A DNA stretch of 41,920 bases from positions 1-41,920 of IMG/VR virus record IMGVR_UViG_3300022818_000030, one strand, 5' to 3'. Within the stretch, counting starts at the first letter, position 1, and the number at the start of each line of letters is the position of its first letter. Both the position numbers and the translations under genes were made by a program. The notes under the pieces were generated by a model. It was not told where the DNA came from. It did not search any database and worked only from the letters and a program-made list of their open reading frames with translations. Source of the stretch: a virus. Positions 1 to 41,300 of this stretch are shown here, piece after piece.

Positions 1-35
1 ACAATATGATTTCCGTACTTACAGTTAGCGGTCAT
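1..35 (-). CDS. Partial third copy of the 69-aa Cys protein (cut by window edge)
   Basis: Only the first 11 codons are present, reading MTANCKYGNHI, identical to the start of the genes at 434-643 (minus) and 3410-3619 (plus). The ATG at 35 follows the same AGAAAG ribosome site and 8-base spacer. The gene runs off the left edge, so whether it is complete cannot be seen. It follows the 101-aa gene in the same order as on the plus strand at 3050-3619. Confidence 0.55.
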   Translation of the reverse strand, partial: MTANCKYGNHI

Positions 36-79
36 ATTATCTGCTTTCTGCACATTATCCCAAGTGCGGGGCTGTATCA

Positions 80-89
80 GGTGTATCGG
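80..89 (-). repeat. Degenerate copy of the 14-bp dispersed motif
   Basis: On the minus strand this reads CCGATACACC, directly after the stop codon of the 101-aa gene. It is the half-conserved variant also found at 3356-3369 and 684-697. Confidence 0.5.
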
Positions 90-395
90 TTATTCCGGGT
101 GCGCTTTCAACCAATTAGCGGCATATTTGTCGCCGGGATAAGCACTGGCATAGGTCGCAATCACCTTCCTTGCCTCGGCGTAGTCGGCGGGGGGTTGTGC
201 GAGTTCGTCTGTTATATCCTTTCCGCTCATTGCGTCTTCGTCCATAACGCGCTTGATATGATCTGAAACATACTGCTGCGCTTCTTCCAGGGTGATATTG
301 AAGCGGGCGCATACTTCCAAGGCGACATGGTAGGGATAAATTCCAGACTTGCCGTGCTGTTCCTCGTTGATAAAATCCATTATTTTCGTAATCAT
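90..395 (-). CDS. Hypothetical 101-aa acidic protein (left copy)
   Basis: I do not recognise a family. The protein is 101 residues, mostly helical by composition, with a central acidic stretch (MDEDAMSGKD) and a C-terminal segment rich in Ala and Tyr. The start is the ATG preceded by AGAAAG with 8-base spacing. The same protein, with no visible residue change, is encoded on the plus strand at 3050-3355. It is followed closely by the 69-aa gene in both places. Identity of both copies implies very recent duplication or an assembly artefact. Confidence 0.7.
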   Translation of the reverse strand: MITKIMDFINEEQHGKSGIYPYHVALEVCARFNITLEEAQQYVSDHIKRVMDEDAMSGKDITDELAQPPADYAEARKVIATYASAYPGDKYAANWLKAHPE

Positions 396-433
396 GTTAT
401 TTTCTTTCTCGCCATAACCCAGGCGGGGGCTAA

Positions 434-643
434 TTACCGAGGCGTATCGGTTAATTCAAGTTCCCGCAAATTCAGAATCTTGGTGATTTTGCTGTCCGGG
501 TAGTATTTCTGCAAGTGTTCCAAATAACAAGCGGGGCAGGTTGGCGTATTTTCGGAGACGCCATTTTCAAGGTCGGTATAGATATAAAGTGCTGCCGGGT
601 GCATGTCTACAATATGATTTCCGTACTTACAGTTAGCGGTCAT
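434..643 (-). CDS. Hypothetical 69-aa Cys-containing protein (left copy)
   Basis: A small protein with one Cys near the N-terminus (NCKYGN) and a CPAC pair mid-protein, compatible with a small zinc site, though only three cysteines are visible. I prefer the ATG (MTANCKYG) over a GTG 18 bases upstream because AGAAAG sits 8 bases ahead of it, as in the neighbouring cassettes. The last codons (LTDTPR) are written by the dispersed motif CCGATACGCCTCGG. An identical copy is at 3410-3619. Function unknown. Confidence 0.65.
   Translation of the reverse strand: MTANCKYGNHIVDMHPAALYIYTDLENGVSENTPTCPACYLEHLQKYYPDSKITKILNLRELELTDTPR
437..450 (-). repeat. Dispersed motif CCGATACGCCTCGG
   Basis: Full 14-base match on the minus strand. 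It overlaps the last codons of the 69-aa gene and is followed by TAATTAGC, then the next gene's ribosome site. Confidence 0.75.
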
Positions 644-662
644 ATTATCTGCTTTCTGCACA

Positions 663-1130
663 TTATCCCAAGTGCGGGGCTGTATCAGGTGTATCGGTTA
701 TTCCGGGCTGCTCCTGGCTGTTACGATCTGCTGCGGGCTGTACCCAACCGGCAGTCTTCACAAGTAGACTGGCAACATCGGCATATTCGTTCCCAAACGT
801 CGAATCCATCATCATTTGCGTTGTTTTACTGCCAATCACGTACATGCTGGCCGCATCCTGGTCGTCTACGTTTGGCAGTAAGCCGGTTGCGCGCAATTCG
901 GCGGCGACACCGGCGGCGAACGACTCGCGCGCCTTGTCCCATCTACGATTAGCCAATGCACGGGCCTGCGTGGGTAAAAGCGGCGCTCCCTTGACTATTA
1001 CCCCCGTTTCCACGTCTGCTTCGGCCCCATTCGCCAACACGCGCACGTTTGGCACATTGGCGCGCGCCCTGTCTGCCCATTCACGATTAGCCTGTACTGC
1101 TTCCATCTTCTGGGCAATTGTTTTAGCCAT
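663..1130 (-). CDS. Hypothetical 155-aa protein, first gene of the left minus-strand operon
   Basis: A 155-residue Ala-rich protein with a helical N-terminus and no motif I can assign. It is the first gene behind a good promoter (-10 at 1206-1211) that shares its operator with the scaffold/capsid promoter at 35 kb, so it is probably a late gene. A packaging role, such as a small terminase subunit, would fit the position because the terminase and portal genes should lie just beyond the left edge, but no residue supports it. The C-terminal end (GITDTPDTAPHLG) is encoded by the shared linker sequence, so the tail of the protein looks borrowed from the cassette junction. Confidence 0.75.
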   Translation of the reverse strand: MAKTIAQKMEAVQANREWADRARANVPNVRVLANGAEADVETGVIVKGAPLLPTQARALANRRWDKARESFAAGVAAELRATGLLPNVDDQDAASMYVIGSKTTQMMMDSTFGNEYADVASLLVKTAGWVQPAADRNSQEQPGITDTPDTAPHLG

Positions 1131-1193
1131 TGGCCGTATGTCCTGGGGGGATTGCGTTATCTATAGCCATAACTCAGCGTATATCTTCCAATA

Positions 1194-1235
1194 TTCAACA
1201 CTTGAATTATAACATACAACAGGTGATATATGTAA
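1194..1235 (-). promoter_or_regulatory. Late-type promoter with TTCAA/TTGAA dyad (left operon)
   Basis: Minus strand: TTACAT, 18-base spacer, TATAAT (1211-1206). The dyad TTCAACACTTGAA (1194-1206, plus-strand reading) abuts the -10 and covers the start site. About 27 of 29 bases around it are identical to the promoter at 35321-35350. It drives the genes at 663-1130 and beyond. Confidence 0.7.
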
Positions 1236-1252
1236 CTCGCGCAACGTGACAT

Positions 1253-1285
1253 TTGACACGTGTAACTGTCGCCCGCAAGTAGTAT
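1253..1285 (+). promoter_or_regulatory. Possible promoter for the rightward accessory genes
   Basis: A consensus TTGACA (1253-1258) overlaps the palindrome ACACGTGT (1256-1263). No good -10 lies at 17 bases; TAGTAT lies 21 bases away. Some promoter is needed here for the plus-strand genes from 1328, but the exact elements are uncertain. Confidence 0.35.
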
Positions 1286-1327
1286 TATATCCTTAGTTAT
1301 AACCTGATGCAGCGAAAGAGATATGAG

Positions 1328-1621
1328 ATGAAACGAAGCGAATTAATCAGCCTCTGCGAAATAACGGGAATACTGCTTATAGACCAGGGCGACTCGGTTT
1401 CAGTAGACGCCCCTACTGGATTTATCCTGATGGGCATTGGTCTCCACTCCTCTACAATCAATACTCACGGATGGAAACGCGAAGAAGTATACGAGGACTT
1501 AGCCAACGATATTGGCGGCGGTGTAGAAAAATGCACCGACCCCGATTGTGATAGTTGCGTAAAAGAACCCATGAGCTTTGATGAAATAGCCGCCCTATAT
1601 CGCGGTACCCGACTGGCCTAA
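1328..1621 (+). CDS. Hypothetical 97-aa protein
   Basis: No family recognised. The protein has a short N-terminal helix (MKRSELISLCEITG), a middle part with Gly and hydrophobics, and a pair of close cysteines (CTDPDCDSC) that could bind a metal. I choose ATG 1328 rather than the upstream in-frame ATG at 1307. GAAAGAG lies just ahead and ATATGAGATG resembles the start-associated sequence (GATGAGATG) seen before many genes here. It is the first gene of the rightward accessory cluster. Confidence 0.65.
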   Translation: MKRSELISLCEITGILLIDQGDSVSVDAPTGFILMGIGLHSSTINTHGWKREEVYEDLANDIGGGVEKCTDPDCDSCVKEPMSFDEIAALYRGTRLA

Positions 1622-1641
1622 TCCCCTATCTATCTGGAGGT

Positions 1642-1857
1642 ATGACAATGACACGCTATCACAAGATCATAAATCACGGTTTGCACACTTGCGCTGATTG
1701 CGGGGAAGTTGTAACCCGTGCCCATATTTGCCCTTGCGCGAAAATGGGCTGTCCTTACTGCGGAAAACTGGTTAGGGTTTATTTTCCCCAAGGGGACACC
1801 CCCACTAACGCGCCCCATTTTGAACAACACATCTGCATTCCAGCGAGGGCGCAATGA
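1642..1857 (+). CDS. Small zinc-ribbon protein, 71 aa
   Basis: A 71-residue protein with CADCG, CPC and CPYCG motifs and a C-terminal His/Cys, enough ligands for one or two zinc knuckles. Such microproteins are common in phage accessory regions and usually have no assigned role. GGAGG sits 4-8 bases before the ATG. Its stop overlaps the start of the next frame (ATGA at 1854-1857), so the two are translationally coupled. Confidence 0.7.
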   Translation: MTMTRYHKIINHGLHTCADCGEVVTRAHICPCAKMGCPYCGKLVRVYFPQGDTPTNAPHFEQHICIPARAQ

Positions 1858-1937
1858 CACCCCAAGAGCTAGCCACCTTACTGCTACACAATCTCGCAGA
1901 GGTTGACCGCCTTATAGCTCTAGTGAGGACGCAATGA
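1854..1937 (+). CDS. 27-aa microprotein coupled to its neighbours
   Basis: A 27-codon frame with ATGA overlaps at both ends (with the genes ending at 1857 and starting at 1934). It encodes one amphipathic Leu-rich helix. The chained start-stop overlaps are the only evidence that it is translated; it may serve mainly to carry ribosomes through. Confidence 0.45.
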   Translation: MTPQELATLLLHNLAEVDRLIALVRTQ

Positions 1938-2074
1938 AACGCTGCACTCACGTCCACATCTGGGCAACTGGCGAATTACTGCCTTATTCTTACGACCTCA
2001 TAGCCCGATTGTTTGACCTGGGCGAGGGTTATACCCTAATCTATTCTGATGGAACTACTAGTCAAACGAGGTGA
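1934..2074 (+). CDS. Hypothetical 46-aa protein
   Basis: A 46-codon frame beginning in the ATGA overlap with the preceding microprotein. The sequence MKRCTHVHIWATGELLPYSY is soluble and mixed in character; no family is recognised. The gene ends 5 bases before the start of the RHH gene, so the whole run 1642-2282 reads as one coupled set. Confidence 0.5.
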   Translation: MKRCTHVHIWATGELLPYSYDLIARLFDLGEGYTLIYSDGTTSQTR

Positions 2075-2078
2075 TGAG

Positions 2079-2282
2079 ATGGAAAAATATACCGATGAAA
2101 TTACCGATACGCCTCGGCAATATAGCGCCGGTGGCCTAAAGCGCGCCTGTATTCATTTGGGCGACCGCGACCGCGCTGCCCTTAGGGTTATACGTGAAAA
2201 ATTAGATTTACAGTCTAACGCCCTTGCCGTTCGGTATTCAATCAGGCTACTAGCCAAAAAACTCTTAGAGAGTAGCAAATAA
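2079..2282 (+). CDS. Ribbon-helix-helix-like small DNA-binding protein, 67 aa
   Basis: The C-terminal half (about residues 27-64) has the character of a CopG/Arc-type RHH domain: a short strand (ACIHLGDRDRA), a helix (LRVIREKL), and a second helix after an S/N turn (NALAVRYSIRLLAKKL). I chose the ATG after GAGGTGATGAG, matching the phage's start-associated sequence, over an in-frame ATG at 2049. The dispersed motif CCGATACGCCTCGG falls near the N-terminus and encodes TDTPR. RHH proteins usually act as dimeric repressors; a role as local autoregulator is inference. Confidence 0.6.
   Translation: MEKYTDEITDTPRQYSAGGLKRACIHLGDRDRAALRVIREKLDLQSNALAVRYSIRLLAKKLLESSK
2104..2117 (+). repeat. Dispersed motif CCGATACGCCTCGG
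   Basis: Full match. It lies 25 bases inside the RHH gene, close to the junction with the preceding 46-aa gene. Confidence 0.75.
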
Positions 2283-2944
2283 TGGATAACCAAATGTCCC
2301 CGCCACACATGAATTTATGGTTTTTAAACGAACGAGCTAAGATGAACGATAACACAACCCTGCAACTCATCATCAATAATAAATCCCTCGAAGATTTGGG
2401 TATAAGCAAAGAATATAAAGAAGAAATATTAGCCAAAATCCTAGAGATAGTACGCCCAGCTACCAAACTAATCTCAAGAACTGCATTTGAAGGAATTGTT
2501 ACGCAAGCGCAAGAAGACAATAAGACCCGCGAGCTACAAATAATACAGCACCGCACACACGAACAAAGACTAAGTGAGCAACACGCCACAATCAGCCACA
2601 ATTACGGATATCTGATCATCGAGGCAAGAAAACATTGCCCAAGTGCAACAATGGAATTTGCTATCGAACCCAACGAAATTGTTTACGAGCCGGGGATTTA
2701 TTTCCTAATTCAAGAACGGCAAGGGTTGGTTTATATAGGAGAGGCACAGAATATAGGCAAGCGACTAAACACCAATCACCACGTTTATAAATCAGGCGAT
2801 TTCTTAGTTGGTCAAGTTTATTCGTTGCCAAATTCTGAAAGCAGAAAAGACGTAGAAATGGAACTTATACAACTATTTAGGCCCCCACAAAATAAACAGA
2901 TAAACCGGTGGAGTATTCCCCGATACGTCTCGGAACCTGGCTAA
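2282..2944 (+). CDS. GIY-YIG endonuclease family protein, 220 aa
   Basis: The C-terminal part carries a GIY-YIG nuclease domain. GIYFLIQERQGLVYIGEAQN gives the GIY and YIG signatures, followed by a conserved Arg (GKRL) and a downstream acidic position (VEMELIQLFRPPQNKQIN) with Glu and Asn where the family has its metal-binding Glu. The first ~120 residues are a charged, partly coiled-coil region, probably for DNA or partner binding. GIY-YIG enzymes cut DNA on one strand through a Tyr/Arg/Glu centre and occur in homing, repair and phage restriction roles. The start overlaps the RHH stop (TAATG). The last residues (PRYVSEPG) are encoded by the dispersed motif. It might be a free-standing homing-type nuclease that mobilises the adjacent cassettes; this is speculation. 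Confidence 0.75.
   Translation: MDNQMSPPHMNLWFLNERAKMNDNTTLQLIINNKSLEDLGISKEYKEEILAKILEIVRPATKLISRTAFEGIVTQAQEDNKTRELQIIQHRTHEQRLSEQHATISHNYGYLIIEARKHCPSATMEFAIEPNEIVYEPGIYFLIQERQGLVYIGEAQNIGKRLNTNHHVYKSGDFLVGQVYSLPNSESRKDVEMELIQLFRPPQNKQINRWSIPRYVSEPG
2920..2933 (+). repeat. Dispersed motif CCGATACGTCTCGG
   Basis: Exact 14-base form, writing the last codons of the GIY-YIG gene and followed by AACCTGG. The same AACCTGG flank follows the oppositely oriented core at 7958-7971. Confidence 0.8.
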
Positions 2945-3049
2945 ACTCCCCTATCCCGCCCCTTGATTGCTAACCACTGGACGCGGGAGGCACGGATAGC
3001 ACCCTCTCTTACTCCCCGCCTTTGGGTAAATAGGCAGAAAGAAAATAAC

Positions 3050-3355
3050 ATGATTACGAAAATAATGGATTTTATCAACGAGGAACAGCACGGCAAGTCT
3101 GGAATTTATCCCTACCATGTCGCCTTGGAAGTATGCGCCCGCTTCAATATCACCCTGGAAGAAGCGCAGCAGTATGTTTCAGATCATATCAAGCGCGTTA
3201 TGGACGAAGACGCAATGAGCGGAAAGGATATAACAGACGAACTCGCACAACCCCCCGCCGACTACGCCGAGGCAAGGAAGGTGATTGCGACCTATGCCAG
3301 TGCTTATCCCGGCGACAAATATGCCGCTAATTGGTTGAAAGCGCACCCGGAATAA
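3050..3355 (+). CDS. Hypothetical 101-aa acidic protein (right copy)
   Basis: Same protein as 90-395 on the minus strand. The frame is open for 29 codons upstream, but I place the start at the ATG with AGAAAG 8 bases before it, because identity with the left copy begins exactly there and the upstream codons differ. It is preceded by a 105-base intergenic stretch after the GIY-YIG gene that ends in the cassette linker CCCCGCCTTTGGGTAAATAG. Confidence 0.7.
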   Translation: MITKIMDFINEEQHGKSGIYPYHVALEVCARFNITLEEAQQYVSDHIKRVMDEDAMSGKDITDELAQPPADYAEARKVIATYASAYPGDKYAANWLKAHPE

Positions 3356-3369
3356 CCGATACACCTGAT
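3356..3369 (+). repeat. Degenerate dispersed motif CCGATACACCTGAT
   Basis: It begins immediately after the stop codon of the 101-aa gene and opens the linker to the 69-aa gene. The same form is at 684-697 on the minus strand. Confidence 0.55.
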
Positions 3370-3409
3370 ACAGCCCCGCACTTGGGATAATGTGCAGAAA
3401 GCAGATAAT

Positions 3410-3619
3410 ATGACCGCTAACTGTAAGTACGGAAATCATATTGTAGACATGCACCCGGCAGCACTTTATATCTATACCGACCTTGAAAATGGCGTCTCCG
3501 AAAATACGCCAACCTGCCCCGCTTGTTATTTGGAACACTTGCAGAAATACTACCCGGACAGCAAAATCACCAAGATTCTGAATTTGCGGGAACTTGAATT
3601 AACCGATACGCCTCGGTAA
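3410..3619 (+). CDS. Hypothetical 69-aa Cys-containing protein (right copy)
   Basis: Identical to 434-643 on the minus strand: NCKYGN near the start, a CPAC pair, and LTDTPR at the end. Its two flanking linkers (3356-3409 and 3603-3658) are diverged copies of each other: motif, then CCCCGC, then TGGG, then AGAAAG, then ATG. This is what makes the gene look like a movable cassette. Function unknown. Confidence 0.65.
   Translation: MTANCKYGNHIVDMHPAALYIYTDLENGVSENTPTCPACYLEHLQKYYPDSKITKILNLRELELTDTPR
3603..3616 (+). repeat. Dispersed motif CCGATACGCCTCGG
   Basis: Full match at the end of the 69-aa gene, followed by TAATTAGC as at the left copy. Confidence 0.75.
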
Positions 3620-3658
3620 TTAGCCCCCGCCTGGGTTATGGCGAGAAAGAAGAATCAA

Positions 3659-3886
3659 ATGAACACAAAATACTTCGTAAAGACTCGGAACTTCTATTGT
3701 CGTAAATGGGTAAAACGCCTCTTGGAACTCGCCCCCTCAAATCGTGGCGACTTCTACGAGGACGGGGACGCGAAGCTGTACGTTGAAACCGCCTCCCCCG
3801 TTCGCGCCTACGACAGCGCCGCAATAAACCTATTTGGCGAGTTCGCCAATACAAACTTTCAAGGAGACGGACACCATGTCAATTAA
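3659..3886 (+). CDS. Hypothetical 75-aa basic protein
   Basis: A 75-residue protein with an N-terminal basic aromatic stretch (KYFVKTRNFYCRKWVKRLL). No family recognised. The start is the ATG behind GAGAAAG, again in cassette-linker context. The gene at this position differs from the one following the same linker on the minus strand (the 101-aa gene), so two different genes occupy equivalent slots. Confidence 0.6.
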   Translation: MNTKYFVKTRNFYCRKWVKRLLELAPSNRGDFYEDGDAKLYVETASPVRAYDSAAINLFGEFANTNFQGDGHHVN

Positions 3887-3971: not shown

Positions 3972-4259
3972 ATGAACTGCCCTAAATGTGGACACGCGAA
4001 AGAAAAGCACAATAACCACTGTAATCAGTTTATAAATAGTGGGACGGAATTATGCAAGTGCCCCCACTCAAACGATAAGCTAACAATATTTGAACTCGAA
4101 GCGCGCAACGCCAAACTGGCGGAGGCGCTAAAAAACCTCGCTGATATATTTCCGCCCACAGAAAGTTTCTATGAAGATACAGAAAAAACGATTCATTGGA
4201 GCGACGAAACAATCGCAATAATCGAAGAGGCCCGCGCCACCCTAAAGGAGATACTATGA
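3972..4259 (+). CDS. Zinc-knuckle plus coiled-coil protein, 95 aa
   Basis: The N-terminal third has CPKCGH, a downstream C/H cluster and CKCPH, fitting a zinc site. The remainder (about residues 40-95) is a heptad-like helix (IFELEARNAKLAEALKNLA). The ribosome site AAGGAG is clear. Its stop overlaps the next start (ATGA at 4256). A structural or regulatory microprotein is plausible; no specific function can be assigned. Confidence 0.65.
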   Translation: MNCPKCGHAKEKHNNHCNQFINSGTELCKCPHSNDKLTIFELEARNAKLAEALKNLADIFPPTESFYEDTEKTIHWSDETIAIIEEARATLKEIL

Positions 4260-4780
4260 TACTCAAACCGAATGACATTATGCAAGAAGGGGACGTAATC
4301 CACGATTTTCTTGGCAGCATCAAAGTGTTCGAATCTACTGGCCTTCCGGTTGGAGGCTTGGTTGTCGAGCGCCCCGAAACTCCCGATACGTCTAGTGAGC
4401 GCGACGCAATCAACCCACTAATAGACAGCATAGAAGAAGATTTTAGACAACAGGACAGGGATATAGCCGAACTCCGTAGGAGTAAGATATTCCTACTCCA
4501 CGAAATAGCCAAACTGTGTAAGGAAAACTTCGCCCTGTTCAAGGCGTATCAAGTCCTCTTTGACCACAACGAGAAGGCTAATGCACGGATCGAATACCTG
4601 GAAGCCATGCGGGAACCATGTCTCAAGCGCGAAGAGGACGACGACCCGGACGAGGACGAACTTACCAGTTGGCGCAGAAATTACAAACGCGTCAAATATT
4701 CTAAAGAGGAGGACGAACTAGCCAACAACGCTGGCTGGCTCGGGACTTACGAACACGCCGATCATTGTACGGAAGATTGA
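4256..4780 (+). CDS. Hypothetical 174-aa coiled-coil protein
   Basis: It starts in the ATGA overlap with AAGGAG upstream. The N-terminal ~45 residues look like a small beta domain (DVIHDFLGSIKVFESTG). The rest is charged coiled coil with a very acidic patch (EEDDDPDEDE) near residue 130. The dispersed motif variant CCGATACGTCTAGT (4383-4396) lies at the boundary between the two parts and encodes PDTSS. No family recognised. Confidence 0.6.
   Translation: MILKPNDIMQEGDVIHDFLGSIKVFESTGLPVGGLVVERPETPDTSSERDAINPLIDSIEEDFRQQDRDIAELRRSKIFLLHEIAKLCKENFALFKAYQVLFDHNEKANARIEYLEAMREPCLKREEDDDPDEDELTSWRRNYKRVKYSKEEDELANNAGWLGTYEHADHCTED
4383..4396 (+). repeat. Dispersed motif variant CCGATACGTCTAGT
   Basis: Eleven of 14 positions match the consensus. 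The CTAGT ending is shared with the copy at 18441-18454. It lies between the N-terminal domain and the coiled coil of the 174-aa protein. Confidence 0.6.
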
Positions 4781-7957: not shown

Positions 7958-7971
7958 CCGATACGTCTCGG
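7958..7971 (+). repeat. Dispersed motif CCGATACGTCTCGG
   Basis: Exact 14-base form. On the minus strand it reads CCGAGACGTATCGG, immediately after the endolysin stop, followed by AACCTGG and the ribosome site of the next gene. Confidence 0.8.
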
Positions 7972-9999: not shown

Positions 10000-10932
10000 T
10001 TACCGAGACGTATCCAGTTTGTCGCGGAACGGCAAGTGCAGCTTCGCCAGCGCATCAATCATTCGACTCTCGCCTCTTTTGTCATAAAGCATCGTAGTCG
10101 CCGTGGACGAATGTCCCGCTATTTTCGCCACAGTCACTGCATCGGTAACATCGAGGAGGTTGCTTATACTTGTGCGCCTTAAGTCGTGCGGAGTCGCGTT
10201 ACTTATCCCGGCCTTCTTCATCCTACGACCTATCATTTTGTAAACGGTTATGGGGGACATAGGCAACACTTTTTCTTTCAATTGGCAGAATAGAGGGCCA
10301 ACATCATTTCCACGTTCGTTTAGCCAATCCTCCAATAGCTCTTTCTCGCCATTCTGCAAAAACTCTACCCGGTCTTTATTTCCCTTGCCGTGGAGAATAA
10401 GTCTGCCAATTCCCGGTTTGTAATCTGGCTGATAGTCCGAGAGTTGAACGGTAGTAACTTCGGAGCGACGAGCCGTGTAGAGTACCATTACCATTAACAT
10501 CGCGGCATCCCTTATCCCATAATCGTCTGTGCAAGTCGCCAGCAAAGCCCCCACCTCTTCGGGGGACAGCATCCTGCCCGCAACGCTATGTCCGGCTATT
10601 CTGCCTAGATCAACCGCTCTCATGTAGTCCTCGCTCGACATCTGCCCCATCCGCCACGCGGCCTTTAACGTCCCTTTTACGGCGGCTATATAGCGCCTTG
10701 AGGTAGCGGGGGCATATTCAGATAGTAACCAGGTTTGTAAAGCCGAAGTATGCTCGTACCGAAGCGCCGACCAGTTGAAAGCATCCAGGTCTTTATCACT
10801 CGTTCCCAACAGCTTTTGAACCACATATCCCAGCGCCTCCCGTTGAGTTTTCCGACTAACCTCAGAGTTTAGCGACCTGATATAAACCTCTGCGGGATTG
10901 GGCTTGGCTTCTAAAACGGTTATGTTTTCCAT
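10000..10932 (-). CDS. int: Phage integrase, tyrosine recombinase family, 310 aa
   Basis: The catalytic set is visible: Arg in LYTARRSEVT (R155), Lys in HGKGNKDR (about 183-186), HDLRRTS (H249, R252), GHSS (H274) and the nucleophile in TMLYDKRG (Y283). Residues ~10-110 are the SAM-like core-binding domain; an arm-binding domain is short or absent, so the protein is closer in size to XerC/D than to lambda Int. It should catalyse integration and excision of the phage DNA. The dispersed motif writes the last codons (LDTSR). A strong terminator follows. AAGGAGGCGTAG lies before the ATG, inside the end of the upstream gene. Whether it also acts on the dispersed motifs is an open question. Confidence 0.93.
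   Translation of the reverse strand: MENITVLEAKPNPAEVYIRSLNSEVSRKTQREALGYVVQKLLGTSDKDLDAFNWSALRYEHTSALQTWLLSEYAPATSRRYIAAVKGTLKAAWRMGQMSSEDYMRAVDLGRIAGHSVAGRMLSPEEVGALLATCTDDYGIRDAAMLMVMVLYTARRSEVTTVQLSDYQPDYKPGIGRLILHGKGNKDRVEFLQNGEKELLEDWLNERGNDVGPLFCQLKEKVLPMSPITVYKMIGRRMKKAGISNATPHDLRRTSISNLLDVTDAVTVAKIAGHSSTATTMLYDKRGESRMIDALAKLHLPFRDKLDTSR
10003..10016 (+). repeat. Dispersed motif CCGAGACGTATCCA at the integrase end
   Basis: It overlaps the last integrase codons. With its TAATTA flank it is part of a 21-base stretch that recurs identically at 17229-17249. Confidence 0.75.
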
Positions 10933-11426: not shown

Positions 11427-11669
11427 TTACACCCTCCGGAGCCTCCCTTGCGTAAGAAGGGCAAAGCAAAACGCTCCACCGGCGATTATCTCCCACCTTA
11501 GCGGGGCATGGAGCATCACCAAGTCCAACGCCAAAGCCCCGACCCCCACACGAATACCAAACTTCAACAAAAAGACAACAGGGATATACCTCTGTAAAAA
11601 TACCCATCTGCAATACCAGAGGATTAGTTTACGATCTCTCTTCCTCATGTGGCGCAGTCTGTATGGCAT
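11427..11669 (-). CDS. 80-aa membrane protein next to the repressor
   Basis: A basic N-terminus (MPYRLRHMRKRDRK) is followed by two hydrophobic stretches (ILWYCRWVFLQRYIPVVFLL and, after a short loop, IIAGGAFCFALL). The frame overlaps the 3' end of the repressor gene by 41 bases. I choose ATG 11669 with GGAG upstream; a TTG at 11684 and an ATG at 11648 are alternatives. The position beside the repressor recalls superinfection-exclusion or lysogenic-conversion genes, but there is no sequence support beyond the membrane character. Confidence 0.55.
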   Translation of the reverse strand: MPYRLRHMRKRDRKLILWYCRWVFLQRYIPVVFLLKFGIRVGVGALALDLVMLHAPLRWEIIAGGAFCFALLTQGRLRRV

Positions 11670-12024
11670 GTCCCCGTTCTCCAATCCTCTTCGTTGCGAC
11701 AGATTCGATCATCCCCAATACCATCGCTCTTTCCTCGGGCGTCATCATGGATAAATAGTGCGCTCCCATTTGAACGTCTTCTTCTATCTCCGCGATTTTG
11801 GGCAAGTGACCCGCGACTCTATAAACAACATCCAGGGGGAGTTCCAGGGCTTTCGACAATCCCTTACATACCTCAAGTCCTATTCCTCTATCCCCGCTTG
11901 AGATTAGATAAATCGCGCTGGCGGACAGTCCCGCCTTCGACGCTAATTTCGAGCGTGTCCAACCGCGTTTGTCGGCCTGTTCATCAACCCACTTCATAAA
12001 ACTGCTGTTATCCATAGCGTACAT
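11629..12024 (-). CDS. XRE/cI-like repressor, 131 aa
   Basis: Residues ~8-70 are an HTH_XRE domain: WVDEQADKRGWTRSKLASKAGLSASAIYLISSGDRGIGLEVCKGLSKALELPLDVVYRVAG, with the recognition helix around residues 33-42. The C-terminal part is helical (EIEEDVQMGAHYLSMMTPEERAMVLGMIESV) and has no autoproteolytic Ser/Lys pair, so it is not a LexA-type self-cleaving repressor. It is transcribed away from the early promoter at 12069-12097, the classic arrangement of a lysogeny switch. AAAGGAGTATAAA precedes the ATG. It most likely silences the rightward early genes. Confidence 0.85.
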   Translation of the reverse strand: MYAMDNSSFMKWVDEQADKRGWTRSKLASKAGLSASAIYLISSGDRGIGLEVCKGLSKALELPLDVVYRVAGHLPKIAEIEEDVQMGAHYLSMMTPEERAMVLGMIESVATKRIGERGHAIQTAPHEEERS

Positions 12025-12443: not shown

Positions 12444-12689
12444 ATGGATAAAAAGCGCACGAAAAGCAAGGAAAGCATGTCAGATAAGCCGAAACCATGG
12501 CCTTACCAAGCCTCCAACGCCCGTGATAGATCAGCAGAAGAAGCACTCGCAATCTGCCGTTACGTCTCGGAAATTATCGAGGCGACCAACGACCCGACCA
12601 TCTTGAAGTCGGCAGCCCACGCTCTCAAGAGCGCCAACCTCATCCTGCGCCACCTGGTACAAGAGGGCGCGCCAATCAGACCGGAGTAA
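12444..12689 (+). CDS. Hypothetical 81-aa protein
   Basis: A basic N-terminus (MDKKRTKSKESMSDKPKPWP) leads into a helical domain (SAEEALAICRYVSEIIEAT, ILKSAAHALKSANLILRHLV). AAAGGAACAGC precedes the ATG. A one-mismatch copy of the dispersed motif (CCGTTACGTCTCGG, 12557-12570) encodes RYVSE within it, the same pentapeptide the motif writes in the GIY-YIG gene. No function assigned. Confidence 0.6.
   Translation: MDKKRTKSKESMSDKPKPWPYQASNARDRSAEEALAICRYVSEIIEATNDPTILKSAAHALKSANLILRHLVQEGAPIRPE
12557..12570 (+). repeat. Dispersed motif variant CCGTTACGTCTCGG
   Basis: One mismatch from the full form. It lies in the middle of the 81-aa gene, so it is one of the few copies not at a gene junction. 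Confidence 0.5.
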
Positions 12690-12834: not shown

Positions 12835-13580
12835 TGGACAACATAATTCAGTTTGAATCCGCAAATGTAAAAATCACTCCGTTCTCAATCGAATTTACCA
12901 ACGGAACGAGTTTCGAGGAGTGGCAATCGGTTTACGAGAAGTTGGAGCAGTTCGATGGAATTATGCAACTCTACATCGGGGACTGCCTGAACTTCGGACA
13001 ATATAACTATGGGTCAAAATACGTTTCCTTTATGGAACACAGTAAATACGACTATTCGACCCTTGCCCATTTCTGCTCTGTTGCAAGGCGCTTCCCGCCT
13101 GGTCTGCGAGAGACTTTTGGCGCTAGCGCCAAAACCCCCACATTCACACAGTTACGGGAGGTTGCCCCACTTGAAGATACAAAGGCCATTCAACTCTTGA
13201 ATTTGGCAAATGAGTGCGGGTGGAGTAAGGATAGGTTGCGGGAAGAAGTGCAGAAGATTCGCCACCCCGAAATCATACCGGAAATTCCAGAAGAACGAGG
13301 CGTATCGGAAACTATTTATCCCGCCGGAAGAAAAGCCCACAGCCTGAAAACGTGGCCGTTATATTTTCAGGCAATTTGGGACGGCTCCAAGACTTTTGAT
13401 ATTCGTCTGAATGACCGCGACTTCATTCCCGGCGACCTCGTGATTCTTGAGGAATACGACCCGAACCTCAAGACCTATTTGGGAAGGACATTAACAAAGA
13501 AAATAGGTTTCCTGATTCAGGGCGAATGGGGTCTTCCTGAAAACACGTGCTGTTTCTCCCTACTGGAGGCAACCAAATGA
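12834..13580 (+). CDS. Two-domain protein: ParB-like N-domain fused to DUF3850 (ASCH/PUA-like), 248 aa
   Basis: Residues ~20-150 resemble a phage/plasmid HTH-containing domain (LYIGDCLNFGQYNYGSKY, FTQLREVAPLED, LNLANECGWSKDRLREEV). Residues ~165-248 match the DUF3850 pattern: HSLKTWPLYFQAIWDGSKTF, then IRLNDRDFIPGDLVILEEYD, then a final strand set. DUF3850 is an ASCH-like fold thought to bind RNA or modified nucleotides. The join carries the dispersed motif (13295-13308, encoding RGVSE), as if two cassettes were fused there. A perfect 20-bp palindrome lies in the N-domain coding region (13115-13134). The start is in a TAATG overlap. Confidence 0.75.
   Translation: MDNIIQFESANVKITPFSIEFTNGTSFEEWQSVYEKLEQFDGIMQLYIGDCLNFGQYNYGSKYVSFMEHSKYDYSTLAHFCSVARRFPPGLRETFGASAKTPTFTQLREVAPLEDTKAIQLLNLANECGWSKDRLREEVQKIRHPEIIPEIPEERGVSETIYPAGRKAHSLKTWPLYFQAIWDGSKTFDIRLNDRDFIPGDLVILEEYDPNLKTYLGRTLTKKIGFLIQGEWGLPENTCCFSLLEATK
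13115..13134. repeat. Perfect 20-bp palindrome TTTTGGCGCTAGCGCCAAAA
   Basis: Every base pairs with its partner across the centre. It lies inside the 248-aa gene and encodes part of FGASAKT. It could be a protein-binding site or extrude a small hairpin. Confidence 0.9.
13295..13308 (+). repeat. Dispersed motif variant ACGAGGCGTATCGG at a domain junction
   Basis: Thirteen of 14 positions match the reverse form CCGAGGCGTATCGG. It sits exactly between the HTH-like and DUF3850 domains. Confidence 0.65.
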
Positions 13581-15166: not shown

Positions 15167-15432
15167 CACCCGATGGACTTGAAATCTTACGAGAACACGC
15201 ACCAAAACCGCTGACTTGGGAAGAGCTTGCCACCATCTACGATAAACAGACCGGTGGACACGCACGAACACAGCTACCGGACAAGATTTTTGATTGGGCA
15301 GAAAAACAAACCGACAAGTTTGTGGTAGATAGCGACGGGTTTTTATGCCTTATCAAAAAGGACGACGCGGAGCGCGAGGCGGAAGAACGCGACCGGCAGT
15401 CAGAAATCTCATACGCCCGCTACGGGCACTAG
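15163..15432 (+). CDS. Hypothetical 89-aa protein
   Basis: ATGA-coupled to the preceding gene. The central sequence (LTWEELATIYDKQTGGHARTQLPDKIFDWAEKQ) suggests a small alpha/beta fold; the C-terminus is charged. No family recognised. Confidence 0.6.
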   Translation: MTPDGLEILREHAPKPLTWEELATIYDKQTGGHARTQLPDKIFDWAEKQTDKFVVDSDGFLCLIKKDDAEREAEERDRQSEISYARYGH

Positions 15433-15454
15433 CCGAAAGGCAGAAAGGTTTGAA

Positions 15455-16909: not shown

Positions 16910-17230
16910 ATGAAGGTAAAAATTGTTGGTGCACAAATGGATACATACTGGTACGCAGATCGCATCGGGGAAACCTTCGAGGTTGGGGTAACCACCGATA
17001 TTGTTGATGGAATTCTGAAATATCGCATTGGCAATCGCTACATAGATGCCGAAGACGTTCTCGTGGTACGAGAACCAAAGCAAAGAACCAACGACGAGTT
17101 GTTAGAAACACTGTTGAGAAAGGCCATTGATTTATTTGACGGAACGCACGAACTTTGCTATGACGTGATGAGCGAAGAATGGATTTGGAAATATCAAACA
17201 CTCTACGCACTTGACGACCTAAATAAGTAA
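16910..17230 (+). CDS. Hypothetical 106-aa protein with SH3-like N-half
   Basis: The first ~60 residues look like a small beta barrel (KVKIVGAQMDTYWYADRIGE, then YRIGNRYIDAEDVLVV), as in short KOW/SH3-type phage proteins. The C-half is helical. The full start-associated leader GAAAGGATGATGAG precedes the ATG. The dispersed motif follows within 4 bases of the stop, and then the promoter of the structured RNA. Confidence 0.6.
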   Translation: MKVKIVGAQMDTYWYADRIGETFEVGVTTDIVDGILKYRIGNRYIDAEDVLVVREPKQRTNDELLETLLRKAIDLFDGTHELCYDVMSEEWIWKYQTLYALDDLNK

Positions 17231-17233
17231 TTA

Positions 17234-17247
17234 CCGAGACGTATCCA
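17234..17247 (+). repeat. Dispersed motif CCGAGACGTATCCA ahead of the RNA promoter
   Basis: It lies between the stop of the 106-aa gene and the -35 at 17262. With flanks it shares 21 identical bases with the copy at the integrase end. Confidence 0.75.
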
Positions 17248-18286: not shown

Positions 18287-18475
18287 ATGACGAAAATGAA
18301 AGAATACCCGATTAATACTCTTTCGCTTCGATTAAATGACACCGACTATCTAGTTAATTTGAGCAGTGGCTTCGCAGTTATTCACACAACGAGCGACCCT
18401 TACATACTGACCATTGAAGTATTACCAAAGGGCGGAGCAACCGATACGCCTAGTAACCCAGCGAAAGGACGATGA
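18287..18475 (+). CDS. Hypothetical 62-aa protein
   Basis: A small beta-type sequence (LSLRLNDTDYLVNLSSGFAV, then PYILTIEVLPKG). The leader GAAAGGATGATGAGAA precedes the ATG. The last codons (TDTPSNPAKGR) come from the dispersed motif variant and the next gene's ribosome site, as in the cassette genes at 0.4-3.6 kb. Confidence 0.6.
   Translation: MTKMKEYPINTLSLRLNDTDYLVNLSSGFAVIHTTSDPYILTIEVLPKGGATDTPSNPAKGR
18441..18454 (+). repeat. Dispersed motif variant CCGATACGCCTAGT
   Basis: It ends the 62-aa gene and sits 22 bases before the next ATG. The CTAGT ending is shared with 4383-4396. Confidence 0.6.
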
Positions 18476-18841: not shown

Positions 18842-19768
18842 ATGGAACACGTACATGCTTATCCCTCTGTGATGCAACTGGGGCACAAAATGATTGCCGA
18901 CATATTTTCCGGCCCCGTTTTGGTGGAGGAAAAGGTAGACGGCTCTCAATTCTCGTTTGGGCGAATAAACGGGGAACTTGTCTGCCGGAGTAGTGGTAAA
19001 CAGCAATTGATAGACGCCCCCGATGATATGTTTTCTAAAGTCATTGAAATCGTCAAGACGCTTGATCTGCACCCCGACTGGACATATCGCGGAGAATTGC
19101 TCAACAAACCAAAACATAATACGCTGGTTTATTCCCGCGTTCCAAAACAAAACATCATCATTTTCGACATAAACACAGGGCTAGAGGAGTATATGACCCA
19201 TGAACAAAAAACAGAAGAGGCGAATCGTTTGGGGCTGGAAGTTGTCCCGCTCTTGTTTTCTGGTAAAGTGGACAACTTTGAAGTGTTCAAAGAGTTTCTT
19301 GACAAAGAATCCGTATTGGGTGGGTCTCTAATCGAGGGAGTGGTAATCAAGAATTATGCCCTCTTCACGGCAGAGAAGAAAGTCGCAATGGGGAAGTACG
19401 TGTCCGAGAAATTCAAGGAAGTACATTCCGGCGACTGGAAAGACCGCAATCCAACCAGCAGGGATTTTGAAACCATCCTTGTGGAGAAATATCGCACGGA
19501 GGCGCGCTGGCAAAAGGCCGTACAGCACTTGCGCGAAGCCGGGACGCTTACAGAATCCCCGCAGGACATTGGATTACTGATAAAGGCGGTTCCCGTTGAT
19601 ATTTTGAAAGAGTGCGAGGAAGAAATAAAAGAGACTCTATTCAAACACGTTTGGCCTCATATCTCTCGTGGTTTAACTCGCGGATTACCAGAGTGGTATA
19701 AAGACGAATTGGCTAAAACCGCGTTTCCAACAACTTCCGATACGTCTCCACAAGATAGCAATGGATAA
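18842..19768 (+). CDS. RNA ligase, Rnl2-like nucleotidyltransferase, 308 aa
   Basis: Covalent nucleotidyltransferase motifs are in order: motif I EEKVDGS (K31 is the AMP-linked lysine), motif III TYRGELL (E85), motif IIIa IIIFDIN (about 106-111), motif IV EGVVIKN (E165) and motif V MGKYVSEKFKE (K185, K190). The DGS after the lysine, the RGE motif and the length fit Rnl2-type RNA ligases better than ATP DNA ligases. Residues ~200-308 are helical and specific to this group. The enzyme seals 3'-OH/5'-PO4 ends, usually to repair host-nicked tRNA. It overlaps the helicase gene by 8 bases. Proximity to a large structured RNA is notable. Confidence 0.85.
   Translation: MEHVHAYPSVMQLGHKMIADIFSGPVLVEEKVDGSQFSFGRINGELVCRSSGKQQLIDAPDDMFSKVIEIVKTLDLHPDWTYRGELLNKPKHNTLVYSRVPKQNIIIFDINTGLEEYMTHEQKTEEANRLGLEVVPLLFSGKVDNFEVFKEFLDKESVLGGSLIEGVVIKNYALFTAEKKVAMGKYVSEKFKEVHSGDWKDRNPTSRDFETILVEKYRTEARWQKAVQHLREAGTLTESPQDIGLLIKAVPVDILKECEEEIKETLFKHVWPHISRGLTRGLPEWYKDELAKTAFPTTSDTSPQDSNG
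19737..19750 (+). repeat. Dispersed motif variant CCGATACGTCTCCA
   Basis: Near the end of the RNA ligase gene (encoding SDTS), 24 bases before the helicase start. Confidence 0.65.
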
Positions 19769-27344: not shown

Positions 27345-28174
27345 TATCTACCCCATGTAAGATAGTGGATACGTCTCGGTAATCGAGGAAGTTTATAAAG
27401 TTTCTTCGCTTCCGCCAGGTCGGACAAAACCTTATTGGCCTGGTCTCGGTTATCATCGCCGATACCAACCCATGCAAATAACTCTGTTGCGAATAAGAGT
27501 TGTGCAAGGACGGGATGAATCGCCTCGTCAATTGGGTCGTTGTAAATATTTACCGCAGGATGGACGGTTTCGTATCCAATCCCAACACTATAACCCGCGT
27601 CGAACTGCGGAAGAACCAACGTTCCAACAGCCCCGCCCGCAGAGGGGATGAGGCTATAGTTCGTCACGGCTGTCCACCCATTGTAGTCTGTGTCATTCAA
27701 GTGGGTTTGTACCCGAATGTCAAGATTTTGCGGGTGTAATTTCAGACCAACGGGAAGGGTATATTCGGTCTGGTCTCCAGCAGTTGTGATGGACGTGTCC
27801 CAACGAATGAACGTTCCGGCTCTCTGTAAGGCTAATCCGACTATTTTTTTCAGTTCAGGTAGCGGGAATTGTGGGGAGATGTGCATATAATAATCCCCCG
27901 CTACAATTGCGTCCGTCACGGTTGGAAACGTCATGGTGAACGTGGAGTCTACATAAGCAGAGACGATCCCGATCTTTCCCTCCGGGGATGCACCCGCTCC
28001 ACCTGCATCGTAAGTGACTATGAGCGTCCCGTTCTTCAAGTCCTCTTCGGATTTCTCCGTGAGGGTGGTGTCTGCCAGCGTGGTTGCAGACCCGCCGGTA
28101 GCAACTCCGCGGAAATAGGCAGAACTACCCAGAAGGGCTATTCCATCCTGTATCAAATTCGATAAGGTGTACAT
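27344..28174 (-). CDS. Putative head-tail adaptor-type virion protein, 276 aa
   Basis: The sequence alternates helices (LPELKKIVGLALQRAGTFIR; HPVLAQLLFATELFAWVG; NKVLSDLAEAKKLYKL) with a beta insert (DQTEYTLPVGLKLHPQNLDI). This mix is seen in adaptor/tail-tubular proteins of podoviruses, just before the nozzle gene. GGAGGTCACTGA precedes the start. The dispersed motif encodes PRRIH at the C-terminus. Confidence 0.5.
   Translation of the reverse strand: MYTLSNLIQDGIALLGSSAYFRGVATGGSATTLADTTLTEKSEEDLKNGTLIVTYDAGGAGASPEGKIGIVSAYVDSTFTMTFPTVTDAIVAGDYYMHISPQFPLPELKKIVGLALQRAGTFIRWDTSITTAGDQTEYTLPVGLKLHPQNLDIRVQTHLNDTDYNGWTAVTNYSLIPSAGGAVGTLVLPQFDAGYSVGIGYETVHPAVNIYNDPIDEAIHPVLAQLLFATELFAWVGIGDDNRDQANKVLSDLAEAKKLYKLPRLPRRIHYLTWGR
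27366..27379 (+). repeat. Dispersed motif variant TGGATACGTCTCGG
   Basis: The only copy I find in the structural block. It lies in the last codons of the 276-aa gene, 22 bases before the start of the 777-aa gene on the minus strand, and is followed by TAAT as at the integrase copy. Confidence 0.7.
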
Positions 28175-35328: not shown

Positions 35329-35368
35329 TTCAACAGTTGAATTATAACACAGGTTATCGGTTTTGTAA
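35329..35368 (-). promoter_or_regulatory. Scaffold/capsid operon promoter with TTCAAC/GTTGAA dyad
   Basis: Minus strand: TTACAA (35368-35363), 16-base spacer, TATAAT (35346-35341). The dyad TTCAACAGTTGAA (35329-35341), with 6-bp arms, overlaps the -10 edge and start site. It is nearly identical over about 29 bases to the promoter at 1186-1215. The -35 lies in the last codons of the giant gene. Confidence 0.75.
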
Positions 35369-38300: not shown

Positions 38301-41300
38301 GGTGTGGCTAACTTTGCGACCACGCCACCCGCTTTTTCTGCCCTCGATACCACGACCGCGTTAAGTGCCTCTGCCCATTGTTTGTCTGTCTTACCGACAA
38401 TCGCCGCCGCAGCCTCAGTCGCGGGAACGTCTGCCATTCTTAGGTAAGGCTGTCCGCCTATCGCAACGCGGTTGATATTTACTTCCTTGAATACAGCCTC
38501 GGCGCGAATGTTCGGCTCAATGCCCTTCTCGTTCCACGACTTCAATTTCCACTGGTTAGTATATTGTCCGCGCCCAAGGCCGTCCAGCATGGTCATGTCC
38601 GCACTTGGAGGGAATTGCGGAGGTAGAGACCTTGAAGCAACCCAAGCCGCGGAGAGTTGGTCTCCCTCATCCTTGAGTTTGTCGAGATTCGCCCACTCGG
38701 ACATCTGATTCGCGCCGGGTTGCAGCGCGAGTTCTACTCCTGCGGTTTTAGCGTACCTCTCAAGGATATTCCTGCCATTCTCCAAATGAGTCATGGCATA
38801 GTCGTCCCACATCTTCCCTTCGGCCTGAAACAGACTCTTCCACAACTCAGTTACAATATTTCGAGAAGTGAGTTCTTCGCCCTTGAGGTCGGAGTATTGA
38901 AGCAGAGACCACGTTTGTCCATTAGATAGCTTGAACTCGTCTTTGAGGATTTGGTCTACTGTCGTGTGGCGGTAAAGAGAATCCCTCAGGGCGACTACGT
39001 GTTCGCGCAAAGCTCCAACGTCTTTAGAGACCGCGCTACCTTTAGGCAAGGTCGCCCATTCACTCGCGAGTTTATAGGCGTCCGCGTCTTTGTTCTGTCT
39101 GCCCAATTCAATGATGATGCGGGTTTTATTGCTCTCGGCAACTTCGTCAAACTTTGCTATGGTTTCGGTGCGTTTGTTTGCAAGTCGGGTCAATAAGTCG
39201 GCTTCGTGTCTGGAAATCGCTTTGCCTACTATCCCATCCGACTGAGCAAGAGCAAGGACTTCTTGCATCTCTTGTGGGACATTCTGCGCCACGCCCACCG
39301 CGCCAACCACCGAGCCTCTTACGATACCAGCCTTGTACTTGGCTAGAATGGCCAGACGAGCCTCTTCAAACTCTGCCGGGTCTTTTGCGGTTGCAATCGC
39401 TTTCTTTACATCAGAGAGCAATCCTACACCTTCGGAACCAAGAAATTTCTCGAAGTCCTTATCGAGTAAACTGTGCCTCCACACTTCCTCTGTACCAGTG
39501 GCTAGTTCGTTGAAGAATGCTTTGGAGACTCTCTTTTGGTGTCCGAAGTTATCGAGAGAGATTTGCCACAGTCTGCGCGCGGTGTCGTCTGAAAGCCCGA
39601 TATCTAACAGGGGTTGCAGAGACGGCATGGTTGCCCGCATGGTGTCTCGTATCATGTTCCGAGACGCCTCGGCAATTATTCCCGCCCCCTGCATGGAATC
39701 ACCCATTGCGCCCATCTTTCCACCCGCGATAATGTTCCATTCCCCTACCGTCAATCCCTTGGCTTTGGTGGAGATTTCAGCCGCCCCGGAGGTGGCCCTT
39801 AAAGCGCCCTCTGGAACGTGGCCGTAAATGTCTGTGAGTTCTTCGTATTTGAGGTTGATGTAACTTCGATAAGCCTTGTCATTGAACATACTGGCAAGGA
39901 CTTCAGCGGTGTTGGATACTGCGTAATCCGCGCCTAAATCATAAGCAATTGCTGTCCCCTGAGAGATTACGTTCCTTACTGGATAGGAGTTCAGCCCCCA
40001 GTTAATATAGACGTTGGAGAACATACCTACCGCTTTGTGCCAACCTCTCCCGATTGCACCTTCGTTGAAGTCATTGGCGATCTTGACGTAGTTGGGAAGT
40101 TCTTTGGTATATCTCTTCGCCCAAACCTCTGTCAGTTTAGATACAGCCTTTCCCTCTGCATCAACAAGTTTCCCCTCAACTTCCGTAGCGGTTTCCAAGG
40201 TCTTTGCGGCGGCTTTCAGGTCGTTCACAGAGGGGACTATCTTCTCTATAGCCTTATCCATGTCTCCCCAAATGAAGGCCGCGAGTTTCCCTCTGTCCTC
40301 TCCAATGGTGTCCTCGAACCACTTACCGAGATCTGCAAGAACGGGGTCAAGTTCCGTTCCGGCTTGCGCCGCGGCTTTCATCTGCTTGTAAGCATCCAGT
40401 CCGTCAATGACCTTATTGATATTTCCGCTTTCTAGCATGGTAGTAGTGAGATGAGCAGTATCTATTGCACCGCGAGATAAAAGCGTTTTTGCGTTTGGAA
40501 GAGTCCGAAGATAATTGTATGCAACCTCAAAGGCCGCATCGTCACCGCGAACCAGTTTTTGATACGCGTCGAGAATGTCCATTCCCTCTGCAATCCCGTT
40601 GTCGAAAGCAGCAAGAAGAATAGCACCGTGAGTACGCCCCAACAATGCCCGACGCATTTCTGTTGTTCCAGCGGCGTAATTTATATCCTGAACGCCTCTA
40701 ATATAATTCTTGGCCCGACGAACGTCTTGTTGTAGGGCAGAGATAGCGTCTAAGTCTCCCGCGGCTTTTCCAAGGGGGGACATGGCCTTTTCCAATTCTG
40801 GAGCAAGGGAGGTCAGGTATTCCGATTCTTGCATCAGTCTACCTTTGCCGAATCCCTTGGCGAAGTCGAATATCTCTCCGAAAGCGGGAATGATTTGTTT
40901 GAACTGCCACCCCATGTTAGACCCAAGTTTTATGGCGACTCTATCTGCTTCCGGCCCCCAGAACTTACCGATGGTCAGTAACGGCTTGGTGGTTCTTGCC
41001 ACGTCTGCGGCCTCAGCGCCAATACCCAATAACTTTCCCCCACGCGCGGGAAGGCTCAGTCCCGCCCACGTAAGCGGGTCTCCGACAACAGACCCGGCCA
41101 GTTCGATCCACGGATTAGCCAACTCCATAGCTAGTTTTTGGGGGTCTTCGCCATTTTGATACCGTCTGTAATATTCCGCCTTCCTCTGCTCGTTGAACAA
41201 GAGGGTGTAAACCGCATTGGAGGCTTGTTCGGCTTCTTGCAAAGCGGGCAGAATATTGGAAGAGGTTATCTTGCCCGTTGCAATCGCCTGAGCGACGCGG

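Follow-up and report, generated by a model that had tools for sequence, protein, structure and literature searches.

Three unrelated small genes (A, B and C) near the left end of a phage contig are each preceded by a homologous linker of ~55 bp (LA, LB and LC), and on balance we think it probable that this linker is a duplicated regulatory leader, composed of a dispersed motif, an H-type pseudoknot and a Shine-Dalgarno sequence, that serves both translation control and, as a stretch of homology, gene shuffling. The window, i.e. the whole stretch analysed, is a 41.9-kb IMG/VR contig from an otherwise unknown phage that, judged by the genes searched, is not T4-like and that encodes an integrase (tyrosine recombinase) and a Cro/CI-type repressor (11629-12024). 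IMG/VR classes the record as linear, and its ends are therefore unfinished. Family searches of A, B and C yielded no family common to them, indicating that the genes are unrelated; the predicted structures of A and B are of low confidence. Gene B would encode 75 aa if its start were the GTG at 3392.

An earlier note on this DNA placed the 69-aa gene (B) between two diverged copies of one linker, which was confirmed, the copies being LB and LC, and placed the same linker before the 101-aa (A) and 75-aa (C) genes, which is borne out by the alignments. Local alignment of the linker pairs gave scores of 44, 36 and 47, while 1000 shuffles reached at most 30; the three pairs rank top among 861 pairs of upstream regions. 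Within the window, an HMM of the three linkers reached E < 0.1 only at these linkers and their left-end copies. The layout runs from a near-palindromic motif (CCGATACGCCTCGG) through CCCC-N4-T(T)-GGG-N4/5-N4' to the Shine-Dalgarno sequence AGAAAG. This last element is present as had been stated, but it is the ordinary Shine-Dalgarno sequence of the phage, GAAAG(G) being found before many genes. In a sigma-70 consensus scan of the + strand of the linkers, LA and LC had no match and LB had a weak one (9/12), a total near chance.

Features of the window discussed in the text, by position
Feature	Position	Strand	Remarks
Second LB copy (36-89) and second inverted B start	1..99	-	cut at contig end
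Inverted gene A copy	90..395	-	100% identical
Hybrid linker	396..450	-	LC left part (motif, pseudoknot) + LA right part
Inverted gene B copy	434..643	-	100% identical
LB copy	644..697	-	between D and inverted B; identity with 3346-3651 starts at 707
Gene D	663..1130	-	155 aa
Motif copy	2104..2117	+	close to start of 2079-2282 gene
GIY-YIG endonuclease-like gene	2282..2944	+	directly 5' of LA
Motif copy	2920..2933	+	last codons of GIY-YIG gene
Linker LA, 5' of gene A	2992..3049	+	degenerate motif ACGGATAGCACCCTC; Shine-Dalgarno AGAAAG 3036-3041
Predicted H-type pseudoknot in LA	3014..3035	+	CCC-C-GCCU-UU-GGG-UAAAU-AGGC
Gene A	3050..3355	+	101 aa, ATG 3050; family match: none
Linker LB, 5' of gene B	3356..3409	+	motif CCGATACACCTGAT; Shine-Dalgarno 3396-3401
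Predicted pseudoknot in LB	3374..3395	+	CCC-C-GCAC-UU-GGG-AUAAU-GUGC
Gene B	3410..3619	+	69 aa, ATG 3410; small Cys-rich protein; family match: none
Linker LC, 5' of gene C	3603..3658	+	motif CCGATACGCCTCGG 3603-3616; Shine-Dalgarno 3644-3649
Predicted pseudoknot in LC	3624..3643	+	CCC-C-CGCC-U-GGG-UUAU-GGCG
Gene C	3659..3886	+	75 aa, ATG 3659; family match: none
Weaker motif copy	4383..4396	+	2 mismatches; within gene 4256-4780
Motif copy	7958..7971	+	directly 3' of endolysin stop, upstream of Shine-Dalgarno of 7681-7935 gene
Motif copy	10003..10016	-	final codons of tyrosine integrase (LDTSR*)
Motif copy	12557..12570	+	1 mismatch; within an ORF
Motif copy	13295..13308	-	1 mismatch; within DUF3850 gene, opposite strand
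Motif copy	17234..17247	-	right past stop of gene 16910-17230
Motif copy	18441..18454	+	3' end of gene 18287-18475
Motif copy	19737..19750	+	3' end of RNA ligase gene
Motif copy	27366..27379	+	3' end of gene 27344-28174 (opposite strand)
Motif copy	39659..39672	+	within 2174-aa gene; possibly fortuitous

What is new in this follow-up is the covariation of the N4 and N4' arms, which differ among the three linkers yet pair in each; an H-type pseudoknot abutting the Shine-Dalgarno sequence thus appears to be present in every linker, conserved next to the ribosome-binding site as judged by sequence and covariation only. The predicted pseudoknot is found in 3/3 linkers, compared to 0.05 expected per shuffled genome. 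By chance, a 4-bp second stem would arise with probabilities of 0.025, 0.018 and 0.010 in the individual linkers (joint chance ~5e-6), and none of 200,000 joint shuffles had the second stem in all three. When the arms were swapped between linkers, every non-identity arrangement was incompletely paired, and RNAalifold, supplied with a hand alignment of the linkers, selected the same second stem. The short stem 1 consists of three GC pairs that are invariant across the linkers and therefore lends no covariation support; the independent leaders number only three, all within one phage. Nested folds of LB (-9.5 kcal/mol) and LC (-13.4 kcal/mol) are more stable than the pseudoknot (~-4.7 to -6.0 kcal/mol, a rough estimate), and the pseudoknot may therefore require assistance or represent one of two alternative conformations. 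Rfam covariance models found no match in the window at the gathering score and no relevant match in 2890-3700 at E <= 5, while a scan of IMG/VR for the pseudoknot frame gave 21 loci, the second stem pairing in 0/21. Two other candidates, a looser pseudoknot at 15415 and one at 3861, were set aside as possibly fortuitous.

The motif had been described as a part of the linker, and it does occur in all linkers, but it is not limited to them and is spread through the phage. At <=1 mismatch it has 15 matches counting both strands (0.02 expected), and a weight matrix recovers 13 distinct sites, 7 of which are no more than 35 bp from a stop (p 9e-5 against a background of 0.098). The motif prefers gene 3' ends; the C-terminus of gene B (TDTPR*) falls within it. 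In being short sites dispersed near gene junctions, the copies resemble the stoperators of cluster A mycobacteriophages, which are spread through a temperate phage genome in this manner and are asymmetric and mostly one-way (PMC6550527). It is conceivable, if rather unlikely, that the motif is likewise bound by a phage repressor that stops transcription at gene junctions in lysogens, and that the linkers are alike as operators. Such a role would suit the numerous near-palindromic copies lying genome-wide near gene ends, as well as the presence of both an integrase and a Cro/CI-type repressor. However, by eye there is no motif just 5' of the repressor gene, the nearest copies (12557 and 13295) lying inside ORFs; copies of the motif, itself near-palindromic, point both ways (8 along and 5 opposite the gene strand, manual count), unlike the predominantly one-way stoperators; and a repressor site leaves the covarying RNA stem unexplained.

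It is also unlikely, in our view, that the motif represents a very small mobile palindrome, comparable to the Rickettsia palindromic elements, which inserts close to gene ends, rides in reading frames and was inherited by the linkers. The copies at 10003, 17234 and 27366 do have shared flanks (18-21 identical bp), as copy-and-paste would yield, those at 2920, 7958 and 18441 have common downstream bases, and 7/9 same-strand in-gene copies, gene D included, are read in one frame, xDT(P/S). Yet no empty site was seen in a comparison with two relatives, which are too diverged, no associated transposase was identified, and the motif is absent in the relatives and hosts searched.

Relatives were sought in IMG/VR with the proteins of gene A, the MCP, the integrase and the exonuclease. 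Only two were found, both distant, by MCP (61 and 54%), and neither has the motif. The linker pattern had no match in IMG/VR, and tblastn of the left-end proteins against sequenced phages gave no match. When IMG/VR and GTDB genomes were scanned for the motif, isolated matches but no clusters came back, which we read as chance. None of these searches turned up a linker-bearing relative.

At the left end of the contig, 1-707 had been reported as an apparently identical, inverted copy of 3036-3651. Both the identity (100%) and the inversion hold, but the copy is made of two blocks rather than one: 402-707 equals 3346-3651 over 306 nt and 1-409 equals 3036-3444 over 409 nt, each without a mismatch. 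The order leftward is D, LB-B, hybrid LC/LA linker-A and LB-B(start), and that on the + strand is A-B-C. The hybrid linker joins LC to LA in register at the shared AGAAAGAA (402-409), and the second junction, 707/708, lies 10 bp 5' of the LB motif; the frame of gene D crosses this motif (ITDTPDTAPHLG*) and stops within the pseudoknot of the LB copy. As the earlier note had proposed, the gene that follows one linker differs between the strands: LC, in its left part, precedes C on the + strand and A on the - strand. Positions 1-99 are, in addition, an exact 99-nt direct repeat of 609-707, an assembly-loop signature at the contig end that had previously gone unweighed.

It is a serious possibility, falling short of a probable one, that the 1-707 copy is a product of assembly or strain mixture, the contig circling a graph loop (the A-B unit) once and then stopping; A and B would then be single-copy in the phage, and the linkers would still be real. 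The copy sits at the unfinished end of a linear record, its identity is exactly 100% across 306 and 409 nt, and the exact terminal repeat has a length typical of what would be the assembly k-mer. A graph loop would nevertheless still require reads across the D/LB and LC/LA joints, the junctions fall in register between homologous linkers or 10 bp from the motif, places that random chimeras would not favour, and a simple fold-back predicts one jump where two are seen. That the inverted repeat breaks in or beside leaders suggests that the genes are reshuffled through a common regulatory switch, while the contig-end repeat could partly be an assembly effect.

The suggestion that the genes are interchangeable cassettes holds in so far as unrelated small genes form linker-bordered units that are joined at linkers in the repeated copy, but the integron logic to which they had been likened is not supported as a mechanism. 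The attC core (GTTRRRY / RYYYAAC) is absent from LA, LB and LC, and the sole tyrosine recombinase found, which looks like an ordinary phage integrase, scores 28 bits against the cut-off of 265 of the integron-integrase (IntI) model. Although small promoterless genes do lie between similar junctions and the integrase gene shares its 3' end with a motif copy, it is highly improbable that this recombinase shuffles the genes site-specifically with the linkers as attC-like sites: the core is missing, the integrase fails the model, and the junctions, at AGAAAGAA and 10 bp before the motif, have no single fixed point. In its conserved part the linker resembles a regulatory RNA leader, with pseudoknot and Shine-Dalgarno sequence, and not a recombination site.

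Evidence from the sequence establishes that the leaders are homologous, that the predicted second stem pairs in a compensatory manner in 3/3 and that it abuts the Shine-Dalgarno sequence. In the regulatory-leader reading that we favour, copies of the leader would have been placed ahead of three small, mutually unrelated phage genes and the pseudoknot would regulate the translation of each, a stable knot hindering the ribosome and the balance being shifted by a bound phage protein, a ligand or a ribosome finishing the upstream gene. Since the leaders are alike, they may double as short homologies for in-register recombination of gene-leader units. An LC x LA exchange would give an A-B unit of 608 bp, as a tandem or a circle; this unit stands 3' of gene D on the opposite strand and would bring the arrangement closer to PeSL cassettes than to an integron; this recombination is deduced from one hybrid linker at one contig end resembling an assembly loop. 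A bolder version makes the linker a mobile regulatory cassette complete in itself: at its ends the phage would swap, duplicate and invert accessory genes, each newly gained gene coming immediately under shared RNA-level control in a regulon entered by recombination. This version strikes us as doubtful.

Several known systems are similar in part. In T4-type phages, PeSLs (promoter early stem-loops) are described as a short regulatory module that recurs between small genes unrelated to one another and is believed to mediate their shuffling (PMC4503421). LA, LB and LC before A, B and C likewise place one module before unrelated genes; the module here is instead a dispersed motif, a predicted pseudoknot and a Shine-Dalgarno sequence, with no convincing promoter in the linkers. 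The SAS/ESAS repeats of cluster K mycobacteriophages lie just 5' of the start codons of unrelated genes, as do the linkers here, some with an extended inverted repeat, and a role in translation initiation has been proposed for them (PMC3203893). However, SAS (GGGATAGGAGCCC) is unrelated in sequence, the passages on these repeats mention no pseudoknot, and the motif copies here are mostly at gene 3' ends. T4 gene 32 has as its translational operator an H-type pseudoknot of ~28 nt that lies 5' of the Shine-Dalgarno sequence and adjoins a GIY-YIG (SegG) gene (PMC535899), and both traits recur here in the predicted knots and the GIY-YIG gene next to LA. The T4 knot is single-copy, regulates its own SSB gene and is separated from the AUG by an unstructured UUAAA region (PMC535899), whereas three copies here precede three unknown genes and the predicted knot directly abuts the Shine-Dalgarno sequence.

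The predicted pseudoknot is an RNA element without an Rfam match. The wider question is how phages acquire small accessory genes and control them at once. Were one leader to act as translational switch and as recombination homology alike, it would unite gene gain with control.

We compared the ~55-bp linkers (LA, LB and LC) lying upstream of the small genes A, B and C, which have no family in common. Pairwise local alignment of the homologous linkers gave scores of 44, 36 and 47; in 1000 dinucleotide shuffles no linker pair exceeded 30, and these pairs ranked as the top three among 861 pairs of gene-upstream regions. An HMM built from the three linkers reached E <0.1 in the window only at LA, LB, LC and the left-end copies. 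Alignment, shuffling, ranking and HMM agree that one linker type precedes three different small genes, as the earlier note had claimed. The AGAAAG ending the linker is the ordinary Shine-Dalgarno sequence of this phage.

Coordinates and details of features in the window
Feature	Position	Details
Gene A (101 aa, +)	ATG 3050	LA arms S2/S2' GCCU/AGGC
Gene B (69 aa, +)	ATG 3410	LB arms S2/S2' GCAC/GUGC
Gene C (75 aa, +)	ATG 3659	LC arms S2/S2' CGCC/GGCG
Gene D (155 aa, -)	663-1130	
Inverted copy of B (-)	434-643	
Inverted copy of A (-)	90-395	
First identical segment	402-707 = 3346-3651	zero mismatches
Second identical segment	1-409 = 3036-3444	zero mismatches
GIY-YIG endonuclease-like gene	2282-2944	motif copy in final codons
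Integrase gene end, inside motif copy	10003-10016	last codons LDTSR*; nearly unchanged at 17234 and 27366
Possible fourth pseudoknot	15412-15454	CCC-GCTA-C-GGG-CAC-TAGC; upstream of gene at 15455; motif in front absent by eye
Perfect hairpin	3852-3875	TTGGCG-AGTT-CGCCAA; loop could base-pair with the AACT that immediately precedes AAGGAG and ATG 3876
Extended -10-like TATGTTATAAT	1200-1212, 9662, 11372	repeated upstream of several genes
Long reading frame	35354-41920	at least 2174 aa

The near-palindromic motif CCGATACGYCTCGG opens LB and LC, is degenerate in LB and LA, and also recurs alone, with 15 matches at ≤1 mismatch (both strands counted) versus 0.02 expected. A weight matrix recovered 13 distinct sites, and at seven of them a stop codon is no more than 35 bp away, against a background of 9.8% (p = 9e-5); counting the end of the GIY-YIG gene, overlooked by the gene caller, would raise this to eight. 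In two distant relatives the motif was absent save for one match with two mismatches, and elsewhere there were single matches only. Stoperator-like sites (PMC6550527) would account for this dispersal; however, the orientation of the motif is mixed, unlike that of stoperators. The motif copies form subfamilies with common flanks, which suggests that they arose by copying.

The three linkers have a common form, CCC-C-S2-U(U)-GGG-(4-5 nt)-S2'-AGAAAG, that would allow a pseudoknot to form. Stem 1 is identical in all of them, while the sequence of stem 2 differs in all three (n = 3, the sample on which the covariation rests) and yet pairs in all three. Stoperators do not account for this RNA covariation. 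When the loop and third segment were shuffled, the frequencies at which a stem 2 appeared for the individual linkers were 2.5, 1.8 and 1.0%; stem 2 was never obtained jointly in all three linkers in 200,000 trials, the product of the chances being ~5e-6. Exchanging arms between linkers abolished pairing in at least one linker in every arrangement, and RNAalifold, given a hand-made alignment of the linkers, picked the same stem 2. Before GAAAG, the form occurs in the window in the three linkers, in their copies and in one looser case at 15415, compared with 0.05 expected per shuffled genome. For LB and LC, however, nested folding is computed to be more stable than a rough estimate for the pseudoknot, which calls for caution. 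Rfam gave no match for the linker RNA, and at none of the 21 IMG/VR loci with the same fixed letters did more than two of the four stem-2 pairs form. The predicted linker pseudoknot is an RNA element that appears unreported.

At the left end of the contig, the order leftward from gene D is D, LB, B, a hybrid linker, A, LB, the start of B and the contig end, with a repeated A-B unit of 608 bp. The hybrid linker takes its motif and pseudoknot from LC and its right end from LA, with an in-register join at the shared AGAAAGAA, and the junction between D and LB lies 10 bp ahead of the motif. Exchange between alike linkers would give both junctions. The terminal 99 nt of the contig, however, repeat 609-707 exactly, as might happen if an assembler went round a loop and halted at a k-mer. 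The copy may be either a real second one or a population variant. The identity of the inverted copies noticed earlier is exact, at 100%, but their order is rearranged. Taken as a whole, the earlier proposal of shared linkers, inverted copies and integron-like logic holds in part: the last element fails, since the linkers lack an attC core and the only recombinase found does not pass as IntI, and membership in the integron arrays is rejected on both counts.

The window, a linear IMG/VR virus record of 41,920 bp with a GC content of 50%, probably represents a temperate tailed phage, because it encodes a major head protein, a DnaB-like helicase, an RNA ligase, a GH25 endolysin, a tyrosine integrase and a Cro/CI-type repressor. 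The IMG/VR relatives found are distant (two contigs, head-protein identity 61 and 54%), and head-protein identity to sequenced phages is below 30% among the matches listed. The genome is probably incomplete, because the long reading frame is still open at the right end of the contig and neither terminase nor portal genes were recognised in the parts searched. TATGTTATAAT is probably a promoter type of this phage.

By comparison with known systems, the linkers are probably phage regulatory linkers, a known kind here in another form. The PeSLs of T4-type phages (PMC4503421) and the SAS/ESAS of cluster K mycobacteriophages (PMC3203893) are among the nearest models for the linkers. The nearest RNA model is the T4 gene 32 pseudoknot operator (PMC535899); a GIY-YIG gene adjoins both this operator and LA, in the latter case on the upstream side. 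Such an endonuclease could have driven linker duplication through break repair. Judged from sequence, the linker is most likely a duplicated leader for translational control that would double as homology for recombination.
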